Assembly: GCF_021401135.1 (NCBI RefSeq)
Contig: NZ_JACBFO010000002.1
Span: 558,001-622,000, forward strand
Origin: Azonexus sp. R2A61
Lineage (GTDB): Bacteria > Pseudomonadota > Gammaproteobacteria > Burkholderiales > Rhodocyclaceae
Reading direction: 5' to 3'
DNA: 64,000 nucleotides
How positions within the stretch are numbered: the first letter of the stretch is position 1; every line of letters begins with the position of its first letter. A model generated the notes under the pieces. It ran no database searches. It saw only the letters and a list, made by a program, of their open reading frames with translations, and was not told the origin of the DNA. This document shows positions 2 through 11,486 of the stretch, piece after piece. A program made the position numbers and the translations under genes.

Positions 2-856
2 GTCGGCGTGGCTTTCTCGCGCCGCCCCAACCCGTTCGGCATCGCCGGCCTGCTCGGCATGATCAGTCTGGGCGTGCTGCTCGCCGCCTGGCTGCTGCTG
101 GCCCGCAACATCCAGTGGACGCCTTTCGGCGCGCTGTTCGCCGTCTGGCTGACCTTCGCACTGGGTGCCGTATCGTCCTACCTGCGCGAACGCAAGCAGC
201 GTGACCTGGCAGTACAGATGTTCTCCCGCTTCCTCGACCCCAACGTCGTCCGTTCGCTGACCGACGAAGGCAAGTTGGCCAAGGCCGAAGCCAGCACCAG
301 CCGGGAAATCACCGTGCTGTTCTCCGATATCCGCGGCTTCACCACCCTCTCGGAAAGCCGCAGTCCGGAAGATGTGGTCCGTTTGCTGAACCGCTATTTC
401 GACCTTCAGGTCGCCAGCATCTTCGAACAGGGCGGCACGCTCGACAAGTTCATCGGCGACGCCATCATGGCGTTCTGGAACGCTCCGCTTGATGTCCCCG
501 ACCACGCCGTTCGTGCCGTACGCGCGGCGCTGGGTATGCAGCAGGCGCTGACGGCGTTCCGCAACGAACTCGGCGAACTCGGCGAGCATTTCGACATCGG
601 TATCGGCGTACACACCGGTCCCGCCGTGGTCGGTTTCCTGGGCTCCAGCCAGCGCCTCGATTACACGGCGATCGGCGACACGGTCAACCTGTCGAGCCGC
701 ATCGAAGGGCACACCAAGGGGGTAGCCCGCATTCTCGTCTCGGAATCGACACGTCATGCCTGTGGTAATGTGTTCGACTTCATCGACCACGGCGAAGTGA
801 CGGTCAAGGGGCGTCATCGTCCGGTCAGACTCTTTGAACCCAGGGAGCGTACATGA
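2..856 (+). CDS. Class III adenylate/guanylate cyclase, C-terminal part (partial at left edge)
   Basis: The reading frame is open to the left edge, so this is the end of a longer gene; a GTG at 8 is in frame but is unlikely to be the start. Two hydrophobic segments (about residues 11-32 and 38-58 counted from 8) precede a class III nucleotide cyclase domain. The two metal-binding aspartates are visible: FSDIRGF near residue 107 and GDAIMAFW near 151, with a GIGVHTG strand and a TAIGDTVNLSSR motif. In this family the missing N-terminus is often a periplasmic CHASE2 sensor; that is inference here. The next two genes overlap it by 4 nt each, so they are co-transcribed. It would make cAMP or cGMP on the cytoplasmic face; the substrate cannot be fixed by eye. 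Confidence 0.88.
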   Translation, partial: VGVAFSRRPNPFGIAGLLGMISLGVLLAAWLLLARNIQWTPFGALFAVWLTFALGAVSSYLRERKQRDLAVQMFSRFLDPNVVRSLTDEGKLAKAEASTSREITVLFSDIRGFTTLSESRSPEDVVRLLNRYFDLQVASIFEQGGTLDKFIGDAIMAFWNAPLDVPDHAVRAVRAALGMQQALTAFRNELGELGEHFDIGIGVHTGPAVVGFLGSSQRLDYTAIGDTVNLSSRIEGHTKGVARILVSESTRHACGNVFDFIDHGEVTVKGRHRPVRLFEPRERT

Positions 857-4091: not shown

Positions 4092-5777
4092 ATGTACAAA
4101 TACGACGCCATCGACCGCCAGCTGATCCTCGACCGGGTCGAGCAGTTCCGCGACCAGGTCCGCCGCTGGCAGGCCGGCGAGCTGACCGACGACGAATTCC
4201 GCCCGCTGCGCCTGCAGAACGGCCTCTACATCCAGCGCCACGCGCCGATGTTCCGCATCGCCGTCCCCTACGGGATGATGAATTCGGCACAGCTGCGCAA
4301 GCTGGCCCACGTCGCCCGCCAGTACGACCGCGGCTACGGCCACTTCACCACGCGCCACAACCTGCAATTGAACTGGCCGAAGCTGACCGATGTGCCCGAC
4401 ATCCTGGCCGAACTGGCCGAGGTCGACCTGCACGCCATCCAGACCTCGGGCAACTGCCTGCGCAACATCACCACCGACCAGTTCGCCGGCGTCGCTGCTG
4501 ACGAGGTGATCGACCCGCGTCCGCTGGCCGAGATCCTCCGCCAGTGGACCACCTTCCACCCGGAATTCGCCTTCCTGCCGCGCAAGTTCAAGATCGCCAT
4601 CTCCGGCAGCCAGGAAGATCGCGCGGTCACCTGGTTCCACGACATCGGCCTGCATCTCAAGGTGGTCGACGGCGTCACCGGCTTCACCGTGATCGTCGGC
4701 GGCGGCCTCGGCCGCACGCCGATCCGCGGCCAGGTGGTGCGCGACTTCCTGCCCTGGCAGCATATCCTCACCTATTGCGAGGCGATCCTCCGCGTCTATA
4801 ACCGCTTCGGCCGCCGCGACAACGCCTACAAGGCGCGCATCAAGATTCTCGTCCAGGCGCTCGGCGTCGAGGAGTTCGGCCAGCTGGTCGAAGCCGAATG
4901 GGCGCACGCCAAGGACGGCCCGGCGACCATCACCCAGGCTGAATACGACCGCGTCGCCGCACATTTCGGCGCCCCGGCCTACGCAACGATTGCTGCGGTC
5001 AACACTGCTTTCGAGGAAAAAAAGGCGGCCGAAAAAGCCTTCGCCCGCTGGGTCGACCGCAACACGCATGCCCACAAGGTTCCCGGCTATGCGGCGGTGA
5101 CGCTGTCGCTGAAACCGCACGGCGTCGCACCGGGCGACATCACGTCCGAGCAGATGGAAGTCGTCGCCGATCTGGCCGACCGGTACAGCTTCGGCGAACT
5201 GCGCATCAGCCACGAACAGAACGTCATCCTCGCCGACGTCAGGCTGGCCGATCTCCACGCCGTCTGGCAACAGGCCAAGGCGGCCGGCCTGGCGACGCCG
5301 AACATCGGCCTGCTGACCAGCATGATCTGCTGCCCCGGCGGCGATTTCTGCGATCTCGCCAACGCCAAGTCGATCCCCATCGCCACCGCCATCCAGCAGC
5401 GCTTCGACGACCTCGACTACCTGTTCGACATCGGCGACATCGACCTCAACATCTCGGGCTGCATGAACGCCTGCGGCCACCATCACGTCGGCCACATCGG
5501 CGTGCTCGGCGTCGACAAGAACAACGACGAGTTCTACCAGGTCACGCTGGGCGGCCGCCAGGGTTACGAAGCCCGGCTCGGCAAGGTCATCGGCCCGTCG
5601 TTCTCGGCCGGCGAAATGCCCGACGTGGTGGAAAAGATCATCCAGGTTTACCTGGAAAACCGTCACCCCGACGAACGCTTCCTCGACACCCTCGACCGGA
5701 TCGGCGTCGATCCGTTCAAGAACCGCGTTTACGAAGGCCGTGCCCATGGCAAGGCCAAGCAGAAGGAGACCGCATAA
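4092..5777 (+). CDS. cysI: Sulfite reductase hemoprotein subunit (siroheme, 4Fe-4S)
   Basis: 561 residues. Two ferredoxin-like/siroheme repeats characteristic of sulfite and nitrite reductases are visible, with siroheme-contacting GHFTTRHNLQ near the N-terminus. The four [4Fe-4S]-siroheme cysteines are C414 and C420 (CPGGDFC) and C457 and C461 (GCMNACGHH). It reduces sulfite to sulfide with six electrons. No cysJ flavoprotein gene follows; instead a DUF934 gene starts right after the stop. The electron donor could be ferredoxin or a separate reductase. Nitrite reductase is the alternative, but the cysB/cysH setting favours sulfite. Confidence 0.94.
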   Translation: MYKYDAIDRQLILDRVEQFRDQVRRWQAGELTDDEFRPLRLQNGLYIQRHAPMFRIAVPYGMMNSAQLRKLAHVARQYDRGYGHFTTRHNLQLNWPKLTDVPDILAELAEVDLHAIQTSGNCLRNITTDQFAGVAADEVIDPRPLAEILRQWTTFHPEFAFLPRKFKIAISGSQEDRAVTWFHDIGLHLKVVDGVTGFTVIVGGGLGRTPIRGQVVRDFLPWQHILTYCEAILRVYNRFGRRDNAYKARIKILVQALGVEEFGQLVEAEWAHAKDGPATITQAEYDRVAAHFGAPAYATIAAVNTAFEEKKAAEKAFARWVDRNTHAHKVPGYAAVTLSLKPHGVAPGDITSEQMEVVADLADRYSFGELRISHEQNVILADVRLADLHAVWQQAKAAGLATPNIGLLTSMICCPGGDFCDLANAKSIPIATAIQQRFDDLDYLFDIGDIDLNISGCMNACGHHHVGHIGVLGVDKNNDEFYQVTLGGRQGYEARLGKVIGPSFSAGEMPDVVEKIIQVYLENRHPDERFLDTLDRIGVDPFKNRVYEGRAHGKAKQKETA

Positions 5778-7033: not shown

Positions 7034-7052
7034 TTTGCTGCGCCGCAACAAA
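7034..7052. promoter_or_regulatory. Near-perfect 19 nt inverted repeat upstream of the kinase/PduL gene
   Basis: TTTGCTGCG and CGCAACAAA flank one central base, with 8 of 9 positions pairing. A plausible -10 (TATAAA, 7069-7074) follows 17 nt downstream; I see no good -35. The position suggests an operator controlling the gene at 7103. The TGC...GCA core resembles sites described for PHB-linked PhaR-type repressors, but that link is a guess. Confidence 0.4.
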
Positions 7053-7102
7053 ATGGTAGTCTGTCCGCTATAAAATCAATGGATTGAAAGCGGAGCGCAG
7101 CC

Positions 7103-9433
7103 ATGAGTGAAATCGACCTCAAACGTTTCTTCCTCGAACAGGTTCCCTTGTTCGCGACTTTCCCGGCCGACCAGGTCGAGGAAATCGTCATCAAGTCACG
7201 CCTGGCCACCTTCGAGGGCAACGAGGCGATGCTCGAAACCGGCGATGAAGGCCGCCTGTTCGGGGTTCTGATCAGCGGCCACGCCGAAATCTCGACGGCC
7301 GACAACACCGGCACGCGCACGGTGATCGCCCAGCTCGAAGCCGGCGACGTGTTCGGCGTCATGGCCCTGCTCACCGGCGAAAAGGTCGCCGCCGACGTGA
7401 TCGCCGGCAACCGCTGCTTCGTGCTGATGGTGCCGCAAGAAGTTTTCAACTCGCACATCCTGATCAACCCCAAGGCGGTCGCCTACCTGTCCCGGCAACT
7501 GGCCGAGCGCACGCGCGCGATCAGCGCCGGGCAGCTTGCGGTCGACGGCCGTTATTCGCCGAAAACGGCAAAGACCGAGACCTCCGACCTGCTGTCGCTG
7601 AACACCCGCCAGCCCGGCAAGGTGGTTGCGCTCAACGTCGGCATCAGCCAGATCCACTTCGGCATCTACGACACCGAGGAGAGCGGCGCCGACATCCACG
7701 GCATCATCGACAACGCCGACAGGCAACATGCCCGCATCACGGTCACCGTCGGGCCGCGCAGCGAAACGCTGGAGCATGCGCCGTTCAAGCTGTCCGACCT
7801 GTTCAAGGTGATGACCGAGGCCACTGCCCTGCTCGGTCCGGCCTTCGCCTTCCATCCGGAAGACGTGGTCGCCATTGGCCACCGCGTGGTGCATGGCGGC
7901 AACAAGTTCTCCAGTTCGGCGGTGATCAATCCGGCGGTGATTGCCGACATCGAGGAACTGGCGGTGTTCGCACCGCTGCACAACCCGGCCAACGTGGCCG
8001 GCATCCGCGTCGCCCAGAAGCACTTCCCGAACGTGCCGCAGGTCGCCGTGTTCGACACCGCCTTCCACCAGACGCTGGCGCCCTACGCCTATCTTTACGG
8101 CCTGCCCTACGACCTCTACAAGCAGCACGGCATCCGCCGCTACGGCTTTCATGGCACCTCGCACCGCTACGTCTCGCTGAAGGCGGCGGAAGTGCTGCAG
8201 CGCCCGCTCGGCGAGCTGGAAATCGTCTCCTGCCACCTCGGCATCGGCGCCTCGCTGTGCGCCATCGACCACGGCCGCTCGGTCGATACGTCAATGGGCA
8301 TGACGCCGACCGACGGCCTGATCATGCCCAGTCGTTCCGGCAGCATCGATCCGGCGGTGATGATCCACCTGCTCGAGCAGCACCACATGACGCCCGAACA
8401 GCTGTCCGCGCTGATCAATACCGAAAGCGGCCTGAAGGGCATCTCCGGCATCTCGAACGACATCGCCGAGATCGAGGCCGCCGCCGCCGAGGGGCATCAC
8501 CGCGCCCTGCTGGCGCACAAGGCCTTCTGCTACCAGGTGCGCAAAAACATCGGCGCCTACGCCGCGGCGATGGGCGGCATCGACGTCCTCGCCTTCACCG
8601 GCGACATCGGTGAAAGCAGCGCGACGGTACGCAGCCTGGCCTGCCAGGGCCTCGGCTACATGGGCATCCGGCTCGACGAGGACAAGAACCGCAGCCTCGG
8701 CAAGTTCGAATCGCACGCGGTGATCTCGGCCGACGATTCGCCGGTGCGGATCATCGTCGTCGCCAACGACGACGAGCGCCTGGTCGCCTGGGAAACGCTG
8801 CGCGCGATCGAGCGCAATACCCTGCTGCTGGAAGCCAGGGCCGAGGAAACGCCGGCCATTCCGGTGGAAATCTCGGCCCACCACGCACACCTGTCGCAGG
8901 CCGACGTCGAGGCCCTGTTCGGTCCCGGCCACCAGCTGACACCGATGCACGAACTGTCGCAACCGGGCCAGTACGCCTGCGAGGAACAGGTCCATCTGGT
9001 CGGCCCGAAGGGACGCATCGCCAAGGTGCGCGTGCTCGGCCCGACGCGCAAGGAAACCCAGGTCGAGATCGCGATGACCGAGCAGTTCAAGCTCGGCGTA
9101 CAGCCGCCGATCCGCCAGTCCGGCGACCTCGCCGGCACGCCGGGGATCACGCTGGAAGGCCCCTACGGCAGCACGACCATCGAGCGTGGCGTGATCTGCG
9201 CCCAGCGCCACATCCACATGTCGCCGGAAGACGCCATGCGCTTCCGTGTGCGCGACAACTACGTCGTGCGCGTGCGCGTCGAGGGCGAGCGCGAGCTGAT
9301 CTTCGGCGACGTCGTGGTGCGCGTGAATCCGGCTTTCCGCCTGGCCATGCACATCGACACCGACGAAGGCAACGCCGGCAACATCCGCACCGGCATGCTC
9401 GGCTACATCGAGGAAATCCAGAGCCGCGCCTGA
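7103..9433 (+). CDS. Fused cyclic-nucleotide-binding / acetate (propionate) kinase / PduL phosphotransacylase
   Basis: 776 residues with three domains. Residues 1-145 are a CRP-like cyclic-nucleotide-binding domain without a DNA-binding helix. About 173-575 are an acetate/propionate kinase: R261 (GHRVVHGG), H350 (GFHGTSH), R411 (SRSGSIDP) and E504 (GDIGESS) match catalytic positions. About 588-776 are a PduL-type phosphotransacylase with H594/H596, H703/H705 (QRHIHM) and H750 (MHIDTDE) as expected zinc and active-site ligands. One protein could thus convert acyl-CoA to acyl phosphate and then to acid plus ATP, or the reverse. Unusual residues: N178 is followed by GISQ where GSSS is normal, and HLGIG replaces HLGNG. 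ATG with GGAG upstream. Confidence 0.88.
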   Translation: MSEIDLKRFFLEQVPLFATFPADQVEEIVIKSRLATFEGNEAMLETGDEGRLFGVLISGHAEISTADNTGTRTVIAQLEAGDVFGVMALLTGEKVAADVIAGNRCFVLMVPQEVFNSHILINPKAVAYLSRQLAERTRAISAGQLAVDGRYSPKTAKTETSDLLSLNTRQPGKVVALNVGISQIHFGIYDTEESGADIHGIIDNADRQHARITVTVGPRSETLEHAPFKLSDLFKVMTEATALLGPAFAFHPEDVVAIGHRVVHGGNKFSSSAVINPAVIADIEELAVFAPLHNPANVAGIRVAQKHFPNVPQVAVFDTAFHQTLAPYAYLYGLPYDLYKQHGIRRYGFHGTSHRYVSLKAAEVLQRPLGELEIVSCHLGIGASLCAIDHGRSVDTSMGMTPTDGLIMPSRSGSIDPAVMIHLLEQHHMTPEQLSALINTESGLKGISGISNDIAEIEAAAAEGHHRALLAHKAFCYQVRKNIGAYAAAMGGIDVLAFTGDIGESSATVRSLACQGLGYMGIRLDEDKNRSLGKFESHAVISADDSPVRIIVVANDDERLVAWETLRAIERNTLLLEARAEETPAIPVEISAHHAHLSQADVEALFGPGHQLTPMHELSQPGQYACEEQVHLVGPKGRIAKVRVLGPTRKETQVEIAMTEQFKLGVQPPIRQSGDLAGTPGITLEGPYGSTTIERGVICAQRHIHMSPEDAMRFRVRDNYVVRVRVEGERELIFGDVVVRVNPAFRLAMHIDTDEGNAGNIRTGMLGYIEEIQSRA

Positions 9434-9584: not shown

Positions 9585-11486
9585 ATGCCCGGCCTGTTAT
9601 CCCGGACCCCACGAAGCAGCCCTGACCGGCGCGCCCTCCGCCTGCAGCAATGGCTGCTTGCGCTGCTCGCCGTCCTGATCGGTGTCCTGTGGTGGTCGGA
9701 AACCTCGCAGGCGCTGCGTGTGCTGCTCGGGCTGGTCCTGCTGGCCTGTGCCTACGTCCTGTTGCGGGAACTGCAGACGCTGTGGGCCACCCAGCGCGCC
9801 TACCGGCTGGCGATGGAAGCGGCGCACGATGGTTTCTGGGAATGGAATCCGCGCAACAAGCGGCTCAACGTCGGCAACCGGCTGCTCGAAATTCTCGGCT
9901 ACCGCGACAATTTCCTCGGCGACACGCATGCCTGGCTGGAACTGGTGCACCCCGACGATCGCGCCCATTACAACCGGACGGTCGGCGACCACCTGAAAGG
10001 CCGCACGCCCTTTTTCTACTGCGAATACCGCGTCCGCGCCAGCGACGGCCAGTATCGCTGGATCGCCTCGCGCGGCATCGCGGTACGCAACCGGGTCGGC
10101 ATCGCCTACCAGATGGCCGGCTCGGTCACCGACATCACCGAACGCAAGCAGCACGAGGAGGAAGTCGCCTTCCTCGCCCGTCACGACCCGCTCACCGGCT
10201 TGCCCAACCGCTTCCTGCTGGCCGAACGGCTGATCGAGACGATGACCGGCGACGGCAAGCGCGTCGGCCTGTTGTTCATCGATCTCGACCGCTTCAAGGA
10301 CATCAACGACTCGCTCGGCCACCGGCTCGGCGACCATCTGTTGCAGGACGTCGCCCGGCGGCTGGCGGAAGTGGTCAGCCGCCACGAAACGCTGATCCGT
10401 CAGGGCGGCGACGAATTCATCGTGCTGATGCCTGCGGTCGACGACGCCGGCGTTGCCGAAAAGCGTGCTGCGGCAATTCTCGCGGCGCTCGAGAAACCGT
10501 TCGAGACCGACGGCCAGTTGCTGCACGTCGGCGCCAGCATCGGCCTGAGCCTGCATCCGGACGACGCCGAGGACGCCGAACAACTGCTGCGCAACGCCGA
10601 CACCGCGATGTACGTCGCCAAGCGCCAGGGCGGCGGGCAGGTGGCACGACATACGCCGGACATGAAAGCGCGCGTGCTCGAACGGGCGACGATCGAGGCG
10701 CGCCTGCGCCGGGCCATCGACCGGCGCGCCTTCGTCCTGCATTACCAGCCGCAATTCGACACCCTCGACGGCCGCCTGGTCGGCGCCGAAGCACTGCTGC
10801 GCTGGCCGGAAGGCGATAGCTGGACGCCTCCCGACCGTTTCATCCCGATCGCCGAGGAAACCGGCCTGATCGTCGCCATCGGCGACTGGGTGCTCGACAC
10901 GGCGATCCGCCAGCTGGCCGAATGGCAGCGCCAGCATCCGCAGCCGCTGCGCATGGCGATCAACCTGTCGGCACGCCAGTTCTGGCAGGCCGACCTGCCG
11001 GAGCGCATCGCCGTCCGTTGCGGCCGTTACGGCCTGGCGGCCGAGCGCATCGAACTGGAAGTCACCGAATCGATGATGCTGCAGGCCGACGGGAAGCACG
11101 TCGATCTGCTCTATACCTTGCGCGGCCTCGGCTTTCGGCTGGCGCTGGACGATTTCGGCACCGGCTACTCCTCGCTGTCCTACCTGCACCGGCTGCCCTT
11201 CACCAGCCTCAAGATCGACCGCAGCTTCGTCTCCGCGCTGGCCGACGACGGCGGCCACGAAGGGAGTAGCACGCTGGTGCCGACCATCATCGCCATGGCC
11301 CACAGCCTGGGGCTGGAAGTGGTCGCCGAAGGCGTCGAGAACGCCGCCCAGCGCCAGGCCCTGCGCCAGCTCGGTTGCGATGTGCACCAGGGCTTTCTCG
11401 ACGGTCGACCGGTCGGTGCGGAGGAATTTCAACAGCGCTGGCTGTCGACCGCAGGCGATTGTCCGGCCCCGTCGGCGCAGGTATAG
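9585..11486 (+). CDS. Membrane PAS-GGDEF-EAL cyclic-di-GMP protein
   Basis: 633 residues. Two adjacent membrane helices (about 23-65) are followed by a PAS domain (about 80-190, ending DITERKQ). The GGDEF domain has the intact signature at residues 274-278, and the EAL domain starts with EAL at 402-404 and has DDFGTGYSSL near 522 and AEGVEN near the C-terminus. Both active sites look intact, so either synthesis or hydrolysis of c-di-GMP is possible. An RxxD inhibitory site upstream of GGDEF is not present (RHET instead). The signal sensed is unknown. Confidence 0.93.
   Translation: MPGLLSRTPRSSPDRRALRLQQWLLALLAVLIGVLWWSETSQALRVLLGLVLLACAYVLLRELQTLWATQRAYRLAMEAAHDGFWEWNPRNKRLNVGNRLLEILGYRDNFLGDTHAWLELVHPDDRAHYNRTVGDHLKGRTPFFYCEYRVRASDGQYRWIASRGIAVRNRVGIAYQMAGSVTDITERKQHEEEVAFLARHDPLTGLPNRFLLAERLIETMTGDGKRVGLLFIDLDRFKDINDSLGHRLGDHLLQDVARRLAEVVSRHETLIRQGGDEFIVLMPAVDDAGVAEKRAAAILAALEKPFETDGQLLHVGASIGLSLHPDDAEDAEQLLRNADTAMYVAKRQGGGQVARHTPDMKARVLERATIEARLRRAIDRRAFVLHYQPQFDTLDGRLVGAEALLRWPEGDSWTPPDRFIPIAEETGLIVAIGDWVLDTAIRQLAEWQRQHPQPLRMAINLSARQFWQADLPERIAVRCGRYGLAAERIELEVTESMMLQADGKHVDLLYTLRGLGFRLALDDFGTGYSSLSYLHRLPFTSLKIDRSFVSALADDGGHEGSSTLVPTIIAMAHSLGLEVVAEGVENAAQRQALRQLGCDVHQGFLDGRPVGAEEFQQRWLSTAGDCPAPSAQV

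Follow-up and report, generated by a model that had tools for sequence, protein, structure and literature searches.

Acetate kinase (AckA) is a textbook ATP enzyme, and association with microcompartments is typical of PduL but not essential to it. We number kinase residues as in the Methanosarcina thermophila acetate kinase (MtACK); R91, H123, D148, H180 and R241 we take to be the acyl-phosphate and catalytic residues of acetate kinase, D148, H180 and R241 being presumably those of phosphoryl transfer, and E384 is presumably a metal-site residue. Excerpts of the published work on MtACK place N211, G239, R285 and G331 in the ATP pocket, report that changes at N211, G239 or G331 lower activity 6- to 200-fold, with nucleotide preference hardly altered by those at N211 and G239, and describe G331 as conserved except in the PPi-using acetate kinase of Entamoeba (PMC4390882, PMC5517563). 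Single changes at these ATP-pocket positions lower ATP use but do not abolish it, according to an excerpt of PMC4390882, and the Entamoeba enzyme is given as the one non-ATP acetate kinase known in 2017 (excerpt of PMC5517563).

AckA and PduL occur joined, in this order, in two-domain fusions of Proteobacteria (Polaromonas pPNAP02, a Paracoccus plasmid), which are annotated 'acetate/propionate family kinase'. In the excerpts of a microcompartment survey, which cover 12 of its 14 places on the subject, acetate kinase is a separate ancillary gene (PMC4207490). Here we describe a chain in which a CRP-like domain precedes AckA and PduL; among the open-access matches listed, as far as their excerpts extend, we found no description of such a three-domain fusion.

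A three-domain chain with a patchy distribution

The window, the whole 64,000-nucleotide stretch of Azonexus sp. R2A61 DNA analysed here, holds one unbroken frame of 776 codons whose sole stop is terminal (Table 1). The preliminary description had proposed three domains in a single chain, and this is borne out by Pfam (cNMP_binding, Acetate_kinase and PTAC), all three matches exceeding the curated cut-offs. The kinase domain covers positions 1-391 of the 392 of PF00871, and NCBIfam returns TIGR00016 (ackA) and NF011652 (phosphate propanoyltransferase), both above cut-off. An AlphaFold2 model of the full chain from 42 sequences (mean pLDDT 62, pTM 0.46, kinase and PduL mostly low) was set aside.

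Table 1 Features of the fusion locus in window coordinates.
Feature	Position	Strand	Basis
PhaR/PhbF-type candidate operator TTGCTGCGCCGCAACAA	7035..7051	+	motif match
Promoter-like pair TTGCTG, 16 bp, TAGTCT, overlapping the PhaR motif	7035..7062	+	sequence only
CNB - acetate kinase - PduL fusion gene, 776 aa	7103..9433	+	translation, Pfam, NCBIfam, relatives
CRP-like cNMP_binding domain, residues 36-117	7208..7453	+	Pfam, E 8.6e-14
Acetate_kinase domain, residues 173-562	7619..8788	+	Pfam, E 2.2e-128
PTAC/PduL domain, residues 587-760	8861..9382	+	Pfam, E 4.7e-78

Of 150 genomes sampled from the window's family, 26 have a full-length fusion frame, the window's own genome among them; 15 of the 68 genera are represented. 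From 188 confirmed relatives, 80 were retained, giving 79 named loci that also carry the fusion (a partial copy in three), under titles that include Azonexus, Dechloromonas, Zoogloea, Azoarcus, Thauera, Rhodocyclus and Propionivibrio. Conservation in Rhodocyclales, which had been raised as a question, is thus real but patchy. The 98 full-length copies reduce to 88 distinct sequences, the window's among them; partial copies that do not span residues 5 to 770 (L044, L062, L087) and locus L181 were left out, and two entries of the set, G144 and L081, are probably one record. Since the frame is uninterrupted and the full-length fusion recurs across genomes and genera, a join by frameshift or assembly error is rejected. 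One further candidate, G107 (L094), proved to be two adjacent canonical genes and not an AckA-PduL fusion.

In a tree computed from all columns with 26 of the 88 fusions, hand-picked for spread, the fusions form one clade (100/100) on a long stem branch of 0.70 changes per column. Beside them stands L125, a sister protein from another class of the same phylum (G1019), which is likewise CNB-AckA-PduL and is 54% identical over residues 1-776. The wide genome searches took just 2 to 4 candidates from each genome to scoring and may have missed others. The two-domain AckA-PduL fusions, which lack the CRP-like domain and have a canonical ATP site, fall into another group together with one standalone AckA.

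The acyl side and the nucleotide side of the kinase domain

The fusion kinase shares its fold family and acyl pocket with AckA of M. thermophila and bacteria (PF00871). R91, H123, D148, H180 and R241 are kept in all 88 copies (R261, H293, D318, H350 and R411 of the window protein) and N7 in 86; in the acyl pocket V93, F179 and P232 are found in 88/88 and L122 in 83/88. On the other hand, residues of PHOSPHATE1, PHOSPHATE2, LOOP3 and ADENOSINE are replaced in 88/88 along with E384, and R285 of LOOP4 in 80/88, in a kinase that, unlike AckA, is joined to two further domains. N211 gives way to I, V, A, Q or L, G239 to P, S or A, G331 to D, E, H, Q or R, and E384 to D, N or H, where the change could mean a weaker catalyst; the replaced nucleotide-side residues of the window protein are I181, Q183, H185, I381, P409, A455, D501, S505 and D557. 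Eight nucleotide-side positions are jointly changed in every copy, most replaced positions carry mainly one substitute residue, and the pattern also holds in 41 representatives at 88% identity. Among 34 comparison AckAs (10 from the window's family and 24 others, one incomplete), G239, G331, R285 and E384 are present in 34/34 and N211 in 32/34.

In L125, S10, S12, K14, N211, G239, R285, G331 and E384 are canonical, while its ADENOSINE motif, FTGGIGQGS, departs from the canonical form. The loss of the ATP site looks derived because this sister keeps most of an ordinary one; most simply, the ATP/ADP pocket would have been remade once, in a shared ancestor of the Rhodocyclaceae fusions, and retained since. 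Like the remainder of the protein, the kinase domain evolves under purifying selection, with a dN/dS of 0.138 as against 0.086 for PduL (595 of 3741 pairs, 86 to 98.5% identical, dS unsaturated).

A pocket remade and kept in this way suggests that the domain is probably not an ATP-forming acetate kinase. The earlier proposal that the chain converts acetyl-CoA to acetate plus ATP is accordingly doubtful in its second half: PduL looks intact, but the ATP-site signature of the kinase is lost in 88/88. It is unlikely that the fusion is an ordinary bifunctional acetate kinase/phosphotransacylase whose odd residues are tolerated or merely shift its nucleotide preference. Its fold and family matches are strong, single MtACK changes leave some ATP activity (excerpt of PMC4390882), and the ATP site is canonical or nearly so in the two-domain fusions and in L125; eight positions replaced in all copies, most mainly by one residue, argue against it, as does the presence of other AckAs in the same genomes. 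A further match to the query exists in 23 of the 26 fusion genomes, its listed place lying in the kinase part for 22, and those AckAs taken from the window's genome (G000) and from G101 retain G331, G239, N211 and E384. The window's genome carries a separate canonical MaoC-Pta/AckA gene pair.

The loss of the nucleotide side could go further, leaving a pseudokinase without phosphoryl transfer, whose role would be to bind acetyl phosphate and to regulate, or act as a scaffold for, an active PduL. The joint change of eight positions on a single long stem branch, the change of E384 in 88/88 and the attached CRP-like domain, which suggests regulation, all point that way, but D148, H180 and R241 are invariant and purifying selection acts on the kinase domain as on the rest; we hold this alternative to be possible though doubtful.

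The closest precedent for a kinase that does without ATP is the pyrophosphate acetate kinase of Entamoeba histolytica (EhACK), which is also changed at 211, 239 and 331, to T, S and Q in an excerpt of PMC4390882, where the fusions have mainly I, P and D. Bulky residues at 331-332 close the adenosine pocket of EhACK; in the fusions 331 is changed in 88/88 and 332 is Ile or Val in 88/88. The extra Gly of its PHOSPHATE2 has no counterpart in the window protein as aligned to MtACK. At the aligned positions the Entamoeba solution does not seem to be reproduced, and PPi would not be an obvious fit for an acidic side chain at 331, a position next to the alpha and beta phosphates.

PduL, the CRP-like domain and the neighbouring genes

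The PduL domain resembles the PduL of structure 5CUO (PF06130) in the six ligands of its two-metal site (H48, H50, E109, H157, H159 and H204) and in R103, Q107 and S127. The ligands H594, H596, E655, H703, H705 and H750, together with R649, are kept in 88/88, and the window protein also keeps Q653 and S673, equivalent to Q107 and S127. It differs from 5CUO in a His that replaces the Arg preceding the first His ligand (88/88) and in His or Ser at the K70 position, and from known PduL in being the C-terminal domain of a larger chain. A profile search for the BMC shell domain PF00936 gave no match in the window's genome, in agreement with the earlier suggestion of a PduL outside microcompartments.

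Cyclic-nucleotide-binding (CNB) domains carry a cassette with Glu and Arg, a pattern that our alignments match. The phosphate-binding cassette of the window copy has neither (V86 and V95), although L125 keeps the Glu. Control by cAMP, cGMP or c-di-GMP, as first proposed, is therefore hard to sustain: the canonical Arg occurs in 0/88 copies and the Glu in 8/88, all divergent. An acetate kinase and PduL gated by such a ligand through the N-terminal domain seems to us very improbable, even with the cNMP_binding match (E 8.6e-14), the Glu of the eight divergent copies and of L125, and an Arg or Lys one position before the canonical site in 74/88, which leaves some doubt. We favour a CRP-like domain that would act as a faster-changing regulatory or oligomerising part, its canonical cyclic-nucleotide contacts lost.

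The Guanylate_cyc and PAS-GGDEF-EAL genes that had been offered in favour of such control lie where they were placed, but neither is a conserved neighbour. Within at most 8 kb on either side (some loci shorter), a cyclase homologue appears in 0/79 related loci, which again speaks against gating, and a GGDEF-EAL homologue in 4/79, of which only one reaches 50% identity. The Guanylate_cyc gene is incomplete, being cut by the window start. With gene frames chosen by a rough GC3-based criterion, cysH lies near the fusion in 23/79 loci and a sulfite/nitrite reductase-like gene in 18/79; no partner gene conserved throughout the 79 loci was found, and we rejected reading an operon function from the neighbours on that ground.

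The upstream PhaR-type motif and the proposed role of the fusion

The candidate operator, whose end is separated from the start codon by 51 bp, matches exactly the motifs of R. eutropha PhaR (PMC12849132) and H. seropedicae PhbF (PMC3206438) as given in excerpts of these papers. It occurs upstream of 65/88 copies exactly and of 79/88 with at most one mismatch, and reversed and shuffled controls gave 0; because these upstream regions share ancestry, the 79 matches do not count as independent events. Letters similar to the overlapping promoter-like pair are found in many copies. FNR/ANR and CRP patterns occur upstream of 0/88 copies each and sigma-54 patterns of 4/88, and the L125 locus, with only about 170 bp upstream present, has no PhaR motif at up to one mismatch. 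The window's genome has a phaR gene (PF07879, E 4.2e-29, at G000:C6:274155). PhaR is present in 144/150 family genomes, therefore its presence says little and was dropped as an uninformative correlate of the fusion; one fusion genome (G012) has no PhaR match and another (G132) has one below cut-off only. Pfam was run on 10 chosen ORFs beside PhaR-like sites, an illustrative list. In Bradyrhizobium, pta and two ackA genes are raised in a phaR mutant (excerpt of PMC10888616).

On this basis we lean, by a little, towards a PhaR-controlled acyl-CoA/acyl-phosphate enzyme of the PHB regulon whose kinase half lacks normal ATP use. PhaR would repress or tune the gene from an operator over the promoter and, by analogy with its biology in R. 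eutropha, would be drawn off the DNA as PHB granules form, allowing expression. The sequences show the architecture, the pattern of conservation, the operator motif and the ancestry; the activities, like this regulation, we infer from them. The complete active site of PduL suggests that it reversibly moves an acetyl or propionyl group from CoA to Pi, which releases CoA and forms acyl phosphate; the kinase domain would bind the acyl phosphate in its ordinary acetate/propionate pocket, with the phosphoryl-transfer residues in place, and would most likely pass the phosphoryl group to a non-ADP acceptor. The simplest candidate, from the Entamoeba analogy, is orthophosphate, which would yield PPi. 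More tentative still is the specific proposal that this is the first nucleotide-independent bacterial acetate kinase, switched by PhaR and catalysing acetyl-CoA + 2 Pi -> acetate + PPi + CoA, or using polyphosphate; we regard it as rather unlikely.

The clade offers a kinase whose acetyl-phosphate residues are frozen and whose ATP side is rebuilt, so that the choice of phosphoryl donor in this superfamily could be tested by a few back-changes. If the three-domain protein is named like the two-domain kinases, metabolic models would credit its genomes with an ATP formation that may not take place at this gene. The PhaR motif links the fusion to carbon storage, and genera that carry it are common in activated sludge, where acetate uptake and the cycling of PHA and polyphosphate matter in practice. 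Were the specific proposal true, the fusion would let PHB- and often polyphosphate-storing Rhodocyclaceae connect acetyl-CoA to acetate in a way that conserves PPi.

Architecture and distribution of the fusion

The preliminary description had proposed that a CRP-like domain, an acetate kinase and a PduL phosphotransacylase are joined in one chain. Translation gives a stop-free frame encoding 776 residues, and the Pfam search recovered all three domains, with consistent NCBIfam matches, which bears the proposal out. The organism's own genome (3.73 Mb, 13 contigs) holds a single three-domain gene; the only further matches of the whole fusion protein to this genome at 0.001 were an AckA of 37% identity, encoded on a different contig, and a weak hit in the CRP-like part. 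This separate AckA is canonical by sequence and adjoins a frame encoding a MaoC-Pta protein. No microcompartment shell domain was found in the same genome.

Features of the window, of its fusion protein (P0001) and of related loci
Feature	Location	Observation
Fusion gene	window 7103-9433 (+)	
cNMP_binding	residues 36-117	Pfam, above cut-off
Acetate_kinase	residues 173-562	Pfam, above cut-off
PTAC	residues 587-760	Pfam, above cut-off
Conserved upstream block	window 7035-7051	
Cyclase gene	window 2-856	
PAS-GGDEF-EAL gene	window 9585-11486	
Sulfite/nitrite reductase-like gene	window 4092-5777	upstream of APS/PAPS reductase gene; 0/11 NCBIfam matches above cut-off; possibly an assimilatory sulfite reductase of unusual type
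Tandem fusion copies, Rhodocyclus purpureus DSM 168	L081 5526-7844 and 8001-10319	
Tandem fusion pair	G144:C59:61707-64025 and 64182-66500	probably one record with L081
Separate adjoining canonical ackA and pduL	L094 4277-6080 (G107)	family member without full-length fusion match
Two-domain AckA-PduL, Polaromonas pPNAP02	L137 1424-9456	clustered with ppk2, P-type ATPase, fabI and DUF3141 genes
Two-domain AckA-PduL, Paracoccus plasmid	L139 3736-7545	same cluster
Acetyl-CoA hydrolase/transferase-like genes, two genus genomes	L143 119-1411; L168 121-1458	after PhaR-type palindrome (Pfam on L143)
PhaR-type palindrome, own genome	G000:C5:42476-42492 (L144)	separates divergent AraC-type regulator and B12-binding/MeaB genes

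As to conservation in the Rhodocyclales, the full frame occurs in 26 of 150 sampled genomes of the window's family, Rhodocyclaceae (own genome included), in 15 of 68 genera and 27 copies. An additional match to the fusion query is present in 23 of these 26 genomes, in 22 listed within the kinase part (no place is listed for the second match in G012); one match only is present in G045, G056 and G138. Wider searches, in which 2 to 4 candidates were scored per genome, matched 5 of 300 genomes across the order at 1e-110, every one in this family; 10 of 321 across the class at 1e-95, full length only in the window's own; 14 of 398 across the phylum, where the one other full-length protein was that of G1019, a genome of another class (54% identity over residues 1-776); and 2 of 248 in the order of G1019 at 1e-120, full length only in G1019. 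AckA-PduL fusions without the CRP-like domain were found elsewhere, including plasmids of Polaromonas and Paracoccus, and in a Sinorhizobium plasmid copy the PduL part is split. The fusion is real and conserved, and the open-access literature searched indicates that it is apparently undescribed.

The cyclase and GGDEF-EAL genes previously pointed out nearby are real, but are not companions of the fusion: among 79 related loci the former recurs in none and the latter, at 50% identity, in one.

Residues of the three domains

Kinase residues of the window protein were converted to the numbering of the Methanosarcina thermophila enzyme (MtACK) by pairwise alignment and compared in 88 distinct full-length fusions, the window's included. 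R91, H123, D148, H180 and R241, which we take to be the acyl-phosphate-handling residues, are invariant in 88/88, and N7 is retained in 86/88. The nucleotide side differs throughout: S10 is replaced by I, L, V, M or H, S12 by Q or R, K14 by H or R, N211 by I or V (85) or A, Q or L, G239 by P (81) or S or A, G331 by D (76), E (9) or H, Q or R, N335 by T, S, G, I or A, and E384, presumably the metal residue, by D (81), N or H. These positions are jointly changed in 88/88, R285 being the exception (H in 76, A in 3, T in 1, Arg retained in 8), and the pattern is unaltered in 41 representatives below 88% identity. The 34 comparison kinases (10 family AckAs and 24 others, either standalone enzymes or fusions lacking the CRP-like part, plus the G1019 protein among these 24) are canonical at G239, R285, G331 and E384 in 34/34, at N211 in 32/34, at N335 in 30/34 and at S10/S12/K14 in all 33 readable. 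The acyl pocket of the fusions (V93, F179 and P232 in 88/88, L122 in 83/88) predicts acetate or propionate.

With N211, G239 and G331, ATP-pocket residues that are a defining feature of an ATP-dependent acetate kinase, changed in all 88, the fusion probably does not belong to that class. The available text of PMC4390882 states that N211, G239, R285 and G331 of MtACK project into the ATP pocket, that the Entamoeba enzyme is the one exception to complete conservation of G331, and that single changes lower MtACK activity 6- to 200-fold, not abolishing it. The Entamoeba enzyme works with PPi/Pi, the sole one known to do so at that time, and N211 and G239 are assigned no substantial part in nucleotide preference (PMC5517563, available part). 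Its solution is not copied by the fusion, in which position 332 remains Ile/Val and, in the alignment to MtACK, the PHOSPHATE2 loop has no insertion.

In a maximum-likelihood tree of 59 kinase-domain rows, 26 of them taken from the 88 fusions, built on every column, changed positions included, and with some long branches flagged, the fusions form one clade (100/100) whose stem is long (0.70) and whose sister is the G1019 protein (100/99); nine two-domain rows cluster apart with one standalone AckA. The ADENOSINE motif of the G1019 protein is FTGGIGQGS. Since 8 of 9 scored nucleotide-side residues are retained in this sister and the remaining kinases are canonical, the three-domain arrangement would most simply be older than the loss of the ATP site. 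For the CRP-like domain, the kinase and PduL, the pairwise dN/dS values are 0.140, 0.138 and 0.086, and thus none of the three domains is decaying.

The metal ligands named for R. palustris PduL in the available text of PMC4784909 map, through alignment to 5CUO, to H594, H596, E655, H703, H705 and H750 of the window protein, and R103, Q107 and S127 to R649, Q653 and S673; none of these residues varies among the 88 fusions. The residue preceding the first ligand is His in 88/88, whereas it is Arg in 5CUO.

The phosphate-binding cassette of the window protein reads GVMALLTGEKVAADVIA. Its conserved-Glu position is Glu in 8/88 fusions and Val in 69, and its Arg position is never Arg among the 88 (I, V, L, T, S, M, N), which makes the cyclic-nucleotide control suggested in the preliminary description unlikely in canonical form for the window protein; a different ligand is possible. 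Arg or Lys stands one position ahead of the Arg site in 74/88. The cassette appears to be eroding, since the seven Glu-bearing copies in the tree (of eight) together make up one of the two main fusion subclades and the G1019 protein (L125) carries Glu too. Invariant positions number 18/165 in the N-terminal part, and 142/415 and 98/196 in the other two.

PhaR-type sites and proposed storage control

The strongly conserved block ahead of the fusion start, TTGCTGCGCCGCAACAA, fits the motifs of two PHB (carbon storage) regulators, TGNTGCN3GCAA for PhbF (PMC3206438, available text) and YTKNTGCRNYGCANMAR for R. eutropha PhaR, which is described in the available part of PMC12849132 as quitting DNA for the granule. 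Across 88 distinct 250-bp upstream regions, which are related copies and not independent events, the PhaR motif is exact in 65, within one mismatch in 79 and within two in 86, against 0, 0 and 3 in controls (reversed pattern, shuffled regions); the shorter PhbF motif gives 53, 86 and 88 against 0, 2 and 32-37. Most PhaR sites start 60-75 bp ahead of the start codon (71 bp in L106, the most divergent copy). One upstream region of the tandem pair (L107) is without a good PhaR motif (4 mismatches), and the other copy has 1 mismatch.

The palindrome TTGYTGCN3GCARCAA occurs within one mismatch 17, 27, 22 and 17 times in four genus genomes; the reversed control gives 5, 4, 4 and 2. Pfam run on 10 hand-chosen ORFs beside such sites identified two phasins, an acetyl-CoA hydrolase/transferase, a pyruvate:ferredoxin oxidoreductase-type protein, a sodium:solute symporter and a B12-binding/MeaB protein with its divergent AraC-type regulator; the remaining acyltransferase, NMT1-like and porin-like proteins have little bearing on PHB. 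On the Paracoccus plasmid, a phasin gene lies two genes from the AckA-PduL fusion, with two PhaR-like sites upstream (one mismatch each).

PhaR-like sites also precede the canonical MaoC-Pta gene, in 9 of 12 fusion genomes within two mismatches and in 5 within one (control 0); the own genome has none there within two. PhaR is encoded in the own genome and in 25 of the 26 fusion genomes (G132 is below cut-off), but its presence alone is not evidence, because 144 of the 150 family genomes have it. The available texts report raised pta and two raised ackA paralogues in a Bradyrhizobium phaR mutant (PMC10888616), and in Sinorhizobium binding of ppdK by PhaR, with ppa proposed from the PhaR motif (PMC12542648). 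The fusion would best compare with a PduL phosphotransacylase that carries a domain for handling acetyl phosphate and is subject to storage control.
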